From Natronosalvus halobius (lineage in GTDB: Archaea; Halobacteriota; Halobacteria; Halobacteriales; Natrialbaceae): DNA of 64,000 bases. Positions 3,063-3,523 of the stretch are shown here, one piece after another; position 1 is the stretch's first letter, and each line of letters opens with the position of its first letter. The stretch spans positions 2,604,001 through 2,668,000 of the forward strand of contig NZ_CP099997.1 of NCBI RefSeq assembly GCF_024138145.1. The letters are read 5' to 3'. The position numbers and the translations under genes are program-made. The notes beneath the pieces were generated by a model. The model was given only the letters and a program-made list of their open reading frames with translations, was not told the origin of the DNA and did not search any database.

Positions 3063-3090
3063 TCTCGAGTTGAAACGAAGGGGTGTTTGG
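3063..3090 (+). repeat. ORB-like element (partial)
   Basis: Contains TTGAAACGAAGGGGTGT, matching the right half of the two inverted elements downstream (TGAAACGAAGGGG followed by a G-rich run). The left half (TCTCGAGT instead of TCTCCACC) is diverged. Same orientation as the element at 3495. Confidence 0.5.
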
Positions 3091-3174
3091 TCCTGCGGGA
3101 GTTGTTGTTAGATATTTGTCGTTACCGGAGAGGTAGAGAAAGTGAATTGTTCTGAGGGGTTTGCCAGGGATATA

Positions 3175-3204
3175 ACACCCCCACCCCTTCGTTTCAGGTG
3201 GAGA
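3175..3204 (-). repeat. ORB-like element, left member of inverted pair
   Basis: Read on the minus strand it is TCCACCTGAAACGAAGGGG followed by TGGGGGTGT. The 24 bases at 3181-3204 are an exact reverse complement of 3495-3518. The G-run faces away from the AT-rich core. This matches the general archaeal ORB pattern (TCCA..GAAAC...GGGG). Confidence 0.7.
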
Positions 3205-3327
3205 TGGACGAAGGAGTGGTGGGTTTCGTGGGACCGAAGAGCCAAATCGATGATTGAGTGGGAGCGATTTCTGCTTGAGACGGCAGGAGAAGCCGTGAAA
3301 GCCGTGAATTCGGAGGGTTCTGGCGAT

Positions 3328-3462
3328 CTAGTAACTCAAGCCGTCTAGAACGACGTTTCTAGTAGAGTCTAGTAACAAAAACCAACTCACCTAGTAAGAT
3401 GCGTTATTTGCTAGTGCTGCGGACTAATTCGTCGGGAGGTGTCTTAAACCTTCCCGTCCTAG
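3328..3462. repeat. Cluster of seven CTAG sites in AT-rich core
   Basis: CTAG occurs at 3328, 3345, 3359, 3369, 3391, 3411 and 3459. Three copies extend to CTAGTAA and one to CTAGTAG. CTAG is rare in haloarchaeal DNA, and by eye the rest of the window has only scattered single sites. The cluster lies between the two inverted ORB-like elements, where an unwinding element would be expected. Confidence 0.75.
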
Positions 3463-3494
3463 AAACCCTTCCCACCCCTACCCTCCTTTTCCGG

Positions 3495-3523
3495 TCTCCA
3501 CCTGAAACGAAGGGGTGGGGGGT
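3495..3523 (+). repeat. ORB-like element, right member of inverted pair
   Basis: TCCACCTGAAACGAAGGGG followed by TGGGGGGT, the perfect mirror of 3181-3204, about 290 bases away. The G-run again faces outward. Confidence 0.7.

Follow-up and report, generated by a model that had tools for sequence, protein, structure and literature searches.

A predicted oriC1 replication origin core separated from orc1 and oapABC in the haloarchaeal genus Natronosalvus

Introduction

The origin oriC1 is an ancient archaeal replication origin, the core of which normally has its initiator gene beside it. The linkage between oriC1 and orc1 is described as conserved across haloarchaea, in a highly syntenic setting, and origin prediction makes use of the adjacency of orc genes. 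The minimal oriC1 consists of two inverted ORBs enclosing an AT-rich region; in H. hispanica, loss of either ORB impairs replication, mutation of the G-string abolishes it, and an inner G-rich inverted repeat acts as an enhancer of oriC1 replication (PMC3936714). Cdc6 proteins are able to act in trans, as tested with oriC2, oriC6 and oriC7 plasmids carrying cdc6-free fragments (PMC3936714), and a predicted origin of Natrinema J7 that has no cdc6 next to it yielded transformants with high efficiency (PMC5350488). Non-adjacent origins were expressly outside the scope of Wu et al. (PMC3528665).

Here we describe region 3063–3521 of a 64-kb stretch of a Natronosalvus genome, referred to below as the window. 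On sequence grounds, this region is the core of oriC1, the ancestral archaeal chromosomal origin, and the main predicted origin of this archaeon.

Results

Architecture of the origin core

The core lies between hemL, which encodes glutamate-1-semialdehyde 2,1-aminomutase (1572–2918, minus strand; NF000818, 553.5 bits for a cut-off of 398; PF00202), on the former oap side, and a β-carbonic anhydrase gene (3895–4662, plus strand; PF00484, 75.6 bits for a cut-off of 25.7) on the former orc1 side; the flanks named in a preliminary description of the sequence are thereby confirmed by NCBIfam and Pfam for hemL and by Pfam for the carbonic anhydrase. That description had also reported a 24-base inverted repeat (3181–3204 and 3495–3518) with outward-facing G-runs, an AT-rich core between the arms and a third, partial copy at 3063. 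All these elements are present, and the repeat is even longer: its exact arms comprise 27 bases, 3178–3204 being the reverse complement of 3495–3521, and form the longest exact inverted repeat of the window. For arms no more than 1 kb apart, the longest exact repeats produced by ten order-1 shuffles measured 13–15 nt. The genome scan that had been proposed for the motif found no copy of the 19-nt core of the arms, TCCACCTGAAACGAAGGGG, outside this pair anywhere in the 3.85 Mb of the genome, with up to two mismatches allowed (0 matches for the reversed-pattern controls). A chance repeat can be rejected, given the length of the arms (27 nt, against at most 15 nt in the shuffles) and the uniqueness of the core in the genome.

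Each arm is an ORB carrying at its outer end the G-string GGGGTGGGGG, which is conserved across the aligned oriC1 cores. The left ORB (3178–3204, minus strand, core at 3184–3202) is the orthologue of the ORB found on the oap side in canonical oriC1, and the right ORB (3495–3521, plus strand, core at 3497–3515) that of the ORB on the orc1 side. Imperfect complementarity extends the arms to 46 nt at 83% (3178–3223 and 3476–3521). More specifically, the inverted repeat continues into a G-rich stretch bordering the left ORB on its inner side (3205–3223, plus strand), which is a candidate enhancer half, and into a matching G-rich stretch on the inner side of the right ORB (3476–3494, minus strand; C-rich on the plus strand). 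The copy at 3063 is a genuine third ORB, TCTCGAGTTGAAACGAAGGGGTG (3063–3085, plus strand, core at 3065–3083), which is 87% identical to the right ORB over 23 nt and lies outside the pair, 119 bp from the left ORB in the window genome. It is found on the hemL side, at about 105–140 bp, in all eight genomes of the genus, and in G111 and G113 it carries a perfect ORB core.

The interior of the core (3205–3494, unstranded), a candidate duplex-unwinding region, has a GC content of 51% overall and of 35% in its AT-richest 60 bp, near 3356–3415, compared to mostly 62–66% in the sampled stretches of the genome. It contains an ordered CTAGTA array (3328–3424, plus strand), made of hexamers at 3328, 3359, 3369 and 3391 and of the TTTGCTAGTGCTGCGGAC block (3407–3424), the order of which is conserved in Natrialbaceae oriC1. 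Four of the six CTAGTA hexamers of the window fall in the array. A search of 391 Halobacteria genomes recovered the array pattern, CTAGn6CTAGnAA...TAGTAA...TGCTAG, in 61, every one of them in Natrialbaceae, and the pattern lies inside the ORB pair wherever coordinates were compared. No report of CTAGTA in haloarchaeal origins was found in the literature searched; the array offers a specific, testable element within the unwinding region.

Orthology with canonical oriC1

In other Natrialbaceae genera, an inverted ORB pair, mostly 304–337 bp apart from start to start, usually sits between the oapA GTPase–oapB–oapC operon and orc1/cdc6-1, in the canonical oriC1 neighbourhood. Of the 125 genomes of the family, 88 contain a strict two-ORB pattern with a gap of 283–310 nt, and reversed-pattern controls gave no match. 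We aligned the eight cores of the genus with 15 cores from other genera; among the latter, the Halopiger core runs in the opposite orientation in the alignment and is excluded from the identity figures. The aligned cores display a common order of elements: G-string ORB, TCTAGTAAC, TTCTAGTnn(n)nCTAGTAAC, CTAGTAA, TTTGCTAGTnnTnCGGA, TAAA, a pyrimidine tract, and ORB G-string. The ordered CTAGTA/TTTGCTAG motifs are thus common to the window core and to orc1-linked oriC1.

Between genus and non-genus cores, identity is 0.90 for both ORBs and 0.79–0.99 for the CTAGTA hexamers, versus 0.42 for the other interior columns and 0.35 for the left spacer. Within the genus, it amounts to 0.88–0.93 for the ORBs, 0.93–1.00 for CTAGTA and 0.51 for the rest of the interior. 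This conservation of the ORBs and of CTAGTA after unlinking argues against decay and is expected if function persists. Altogether, the shared ORB pair, its spacing, the order of the interior motifs and one syntenic flank, the helicase block described below, indicate that the window locus is orthologous to oriC1, which lends support to the earlier suggestion of a haloarchaeal origin at this site.

Gene neighbourhood and separation from orc1 and oapABC

The synteny marker is a Rad3/DinG-like helicase gene, the N-terminal part of which occupies positions 1–1004 of the window (minus strand; whole gene at G000:C1:2602527-2605004, G000 being the window genome). In other genera, this gene lies ~5–9 kb from canonical oriC1, on the oap side; in Natronosalvus it is found directly beyond hemL, oriented with respect to the core as in the canonical arrangement. 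The helicase and its neighbours c6, c3 and c4 are on the left of the core, the canonical oriC1 of G028 has the helicase, c6 and c3 on its left, and in Halovivax and G016 the helicase alone is found there. The origin core thus retained the landmark on its left, and orc1 and oapABC moved away. Four other genera, represented by six genomes, have hemL at a different place, and no carbonic anhydrase of this type was detected beside it in those genomes. A main role as an operator for hemL or the carbonic anhydrase gene was rejected because the core occurs beside other neighbours. Note that several members of the genus have isolated single ORB-like sites within the helicase gene and within one other gene, 5–9 kb from the origin on the hemL side (L093 8697 and 14458; L098 1742 and 7566; L100 1029 and 6946; L102 5730).

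The pair and the third ORB adjoin the carbonic anhydrase gene and hemL in 8/8 genomes of the genus (hemL being either called or placed by synteny). In the five genomes in which the pair and orc1 share a contig, the distance between them is 205 (window genome), 147, 235, 193 and 1,344 kb; in the remaining three, they are on different contigs. The orc1 gene is single-copy in the genus and, among full-length matches, 84–98% identical to that of the window genome. The distance from oapB to the core, where measurable, is 42–366 kb (329 kb in the window genome). The preliminary description had pointed out that no orc gene neighbours the repeat, which holds: the nearest orc of any type is an Orc1-type gene of a different subfamily located 43 kb from the core (46270–47469), the orc1 of the oriC1 type being the one 205 kb off. 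The window core lacks the adjacency to an orc/cdc6 gene that characterizes the class of Wu et al. 2012 (PMC3528665), and, of the oapABC–oriC1–orc1 neighbourhood, the oap and orc1 flanks are absent and the helicase block on the oap side is present.

The orc1 gene of the window genome (G000:C1:2812415-2814013) keeps one proximal upstream ORB, at G000:C1:2814028. A hidden second ORB pair beside orc1 was rejected, as just this one proximal ORB is present, and so was the idea that oapABC had carried the origin along, as the ORB pair is absent at its new site. Very probably, oriC1 was split by a rearrangement that predates the diversification of the genus.

Several further features were observed in connection with orc genes and ORBs. 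The Orc1 proteins of the family, like the product of the above orc1 gene, show two separate stretches of match to the orc1/cdc6 profile, split by an insertion of ~80 residues in the ATPase domain. The gene for the PolD small subunit, near orc1, contains within its coding sequence an inverted ORB pair, the spacing of which is constant at 57 bp (G000:C1:2793642-2793717, i.e. L095 7642-7717; also L104 10435, L106 13055, L107 6146, L258 5951 and L260 10930). The pair sits in a variable, low-complexity linker, the conserved residues of which are mainly those encoded by the ORBs (PSVSTG...PVETEG), a pattern suggestive of selection acting on the DNA, perhaps for Orc1 titration. Finally, three ORB-like sites of the same direction, with a GAAAT variant, are found at 54088–54417 in the window, ~7 kb from the Orc1-type gene at 46270–47469 (NF001626); they possibly constitute another origin or a regulatory cluster.

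Frequency of the separation in the family

Family genomes with listed pair coordinates amount to 95, those with no listed or found pair position being left out. The pair adjoins orc1 in 85 of them: in 84, orc1 is within 3.8 kb (median 1.5 kb), and in G028 the two are adjacent across contig ends. The ten exceptions are the eight Natronosalvus genomes and two Natrinema genomes, G060 and G061, in which oapABC and the helicase remain with the core and orc1–polD1 is 159 kb away. In both genera, the break occurred between the pair and the orc1-proximal ORB; the two splits look independent, because what moved differs. Conversely, in G021 and G120 orc1 is retained at the origin and oapB is the distant gene, at roughly 100 kb or beyond.

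Discussion

The reading that we favour, with a probability of roughly 0.84 given jointly to the ancestral rearrangement, is that the oriC1 core has been unlinked in Natronosalvus and would be served in trans by a distant Orc1. The proposal of a trans-activated, unlinked oriC1 draws on the published trans action of Cdc6 and on the J7 origin that has no adjacent cdc6. According to this model, orc1/cdc6-1 with its own proximal ORB, and oapABC, would have moved elsewhere, while the origin core would have remained next to the helicase block and acquired hemL and the carbonic anhydrase gene as neighbours. Orc1 produced from a gene ~150 kb or more away would bind the inverted ORBs, with their G-strings outward, and melt the CTAGTA-rich interior; MCM loading would follow, leading to bidirectional replication, the efficiency of which may be tuned by the third ORB and the inner G-rich repeat. 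There are counterpoints to this model. Work on H. hispanica reportedly stresses dependence on the co-located cdc6. A passage of PMC1906834 cites a report that Halobacterium orc7 is required in cis for plasmid replication. In addition, several orc genes besides orc1 are present in the window genome, which could depend on a different origin for its replication.

GC skew was sampled in 20-kb stretches, about 20 spaced ones plus denser ones near the locus in the window genome and 22 in G117, and in both the signal proved too faint and noisy for an origin to be located. The skew changes sign near the locus, with a magnitude no larger than elsewhere, and therefore gives no support for a dominant origin at this site. 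This result fits the idea that the orthologous core is dormant or weak, persisting as a backup or because unlinking is recent, and that another, orc-linked origin replicates the chromosome. The presence of several other orc genes points the same way, predicted haloarchaeal origins are often inactive (PMC3528665), and a dormant origin can be activated (PMC4595724). Yet the ORBs and CTAGTA are kept across divergent Natronosalvus species in which the rest of the interior has diverged to an identity of 0.51, a pattern that calls for continuing selection, and we regard a dormant core as unlikely. It is still less probable that the inverted ORBs serve mainly as Orc1-titration or regulatory sites, controlling either hemL/carbonic anhydrase transcription or the initiator, rather than as an origin: although initiation at H. 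hispanica oriC2 is controlled by ORB-rich regions, probably via titration (PMC3936714), and isolated ORB-like sites as well as the intragenic ORB pair are present in these genomes, the interior shows the full anatomy of a minimal oriC1, and the occurrence of the same core and interior beside unrelated genes in other genera unties the locus from hemL and the carbonic anhydrase. As for a misjoin that would have placed next to hemL a core truly located beside orc1, any single genome could be misassembled, but the pair is next to hemL and the carbonic anhydrase gene in eight separately assembled genomes, including large-contig and single-contig assemblies, and the orc1 locus has no second ORB pair, which makes such an artefact extremely improbable.

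Returning to the proposed trans-served oriC1 core, the link is broken and the core kept in Natronosalvus and two Natrinema species, which offers a natural test of initiator–origin adjacency with respect to timing, dosage and autoregulation; it also means that predicted main origins can be missed by searches based on orc adjacency. A bolder version, which we hold only tentatively and consider somewhat doubtful, is that in these species the ancestral origin fires as the main one with Orc1 acting entirely in trans, so that linkage of oriC1 to orc1 in cis would be evolutionarily dispensable, and that the family-specific CTAGTA array binds an initiation factor, as in the case of Sulfolobus ucm/UBP.

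The closest known systems are the haloarchaeal oriC1 origins linked to cdc6A, orc7 or orc1 in Haloarcula hispanica, Haloferax volcanii and Halobacterium NRC-1. The window core resembles them by its two inverted ORBs, the outward halophile G-strings and the AT-rich interior, and the core of the sister genera is orthologous to it in sequence; its imperfect G-rich repeat inside the ORBs is a candidate counterpart of the H. hispanica enhancer. It differs from them by the absence of adjacent orc1 or oapABC, by its hemL and carbonic anhydrase flanks and by the third ORB on the former oap side. The predicted oriC10 of Natrinema sp. J7 (pFJ6; PMC5350488) is likewise an ORB-bearing haloarchaeal origin with no cdc6 alongside. 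It may involve a different chromosomal site. We did not adopt the view that it is an unlinked oriC1, because oriC1 adjoins orc1 in Natrinema gari, which we take to be a close relative of J7. Sulfolobus oriC1, with Orc1-1, an ORB2–DUE–ORB3 arrangement and the ucm motif (PMC12141716), also has three ORBs, two of which are inverted around the unwinding element, and, as in the window core, a conserved motif lies within that element; in contrast, orc1-1 is adjacent to it, and the ucm sequence is unlike the CTAGTA array. The Natronosalvus locus is an oriC1 core and not a new type of system, yet it lacks the adjacency feature that defines orc/cdc6-adjacent origins.
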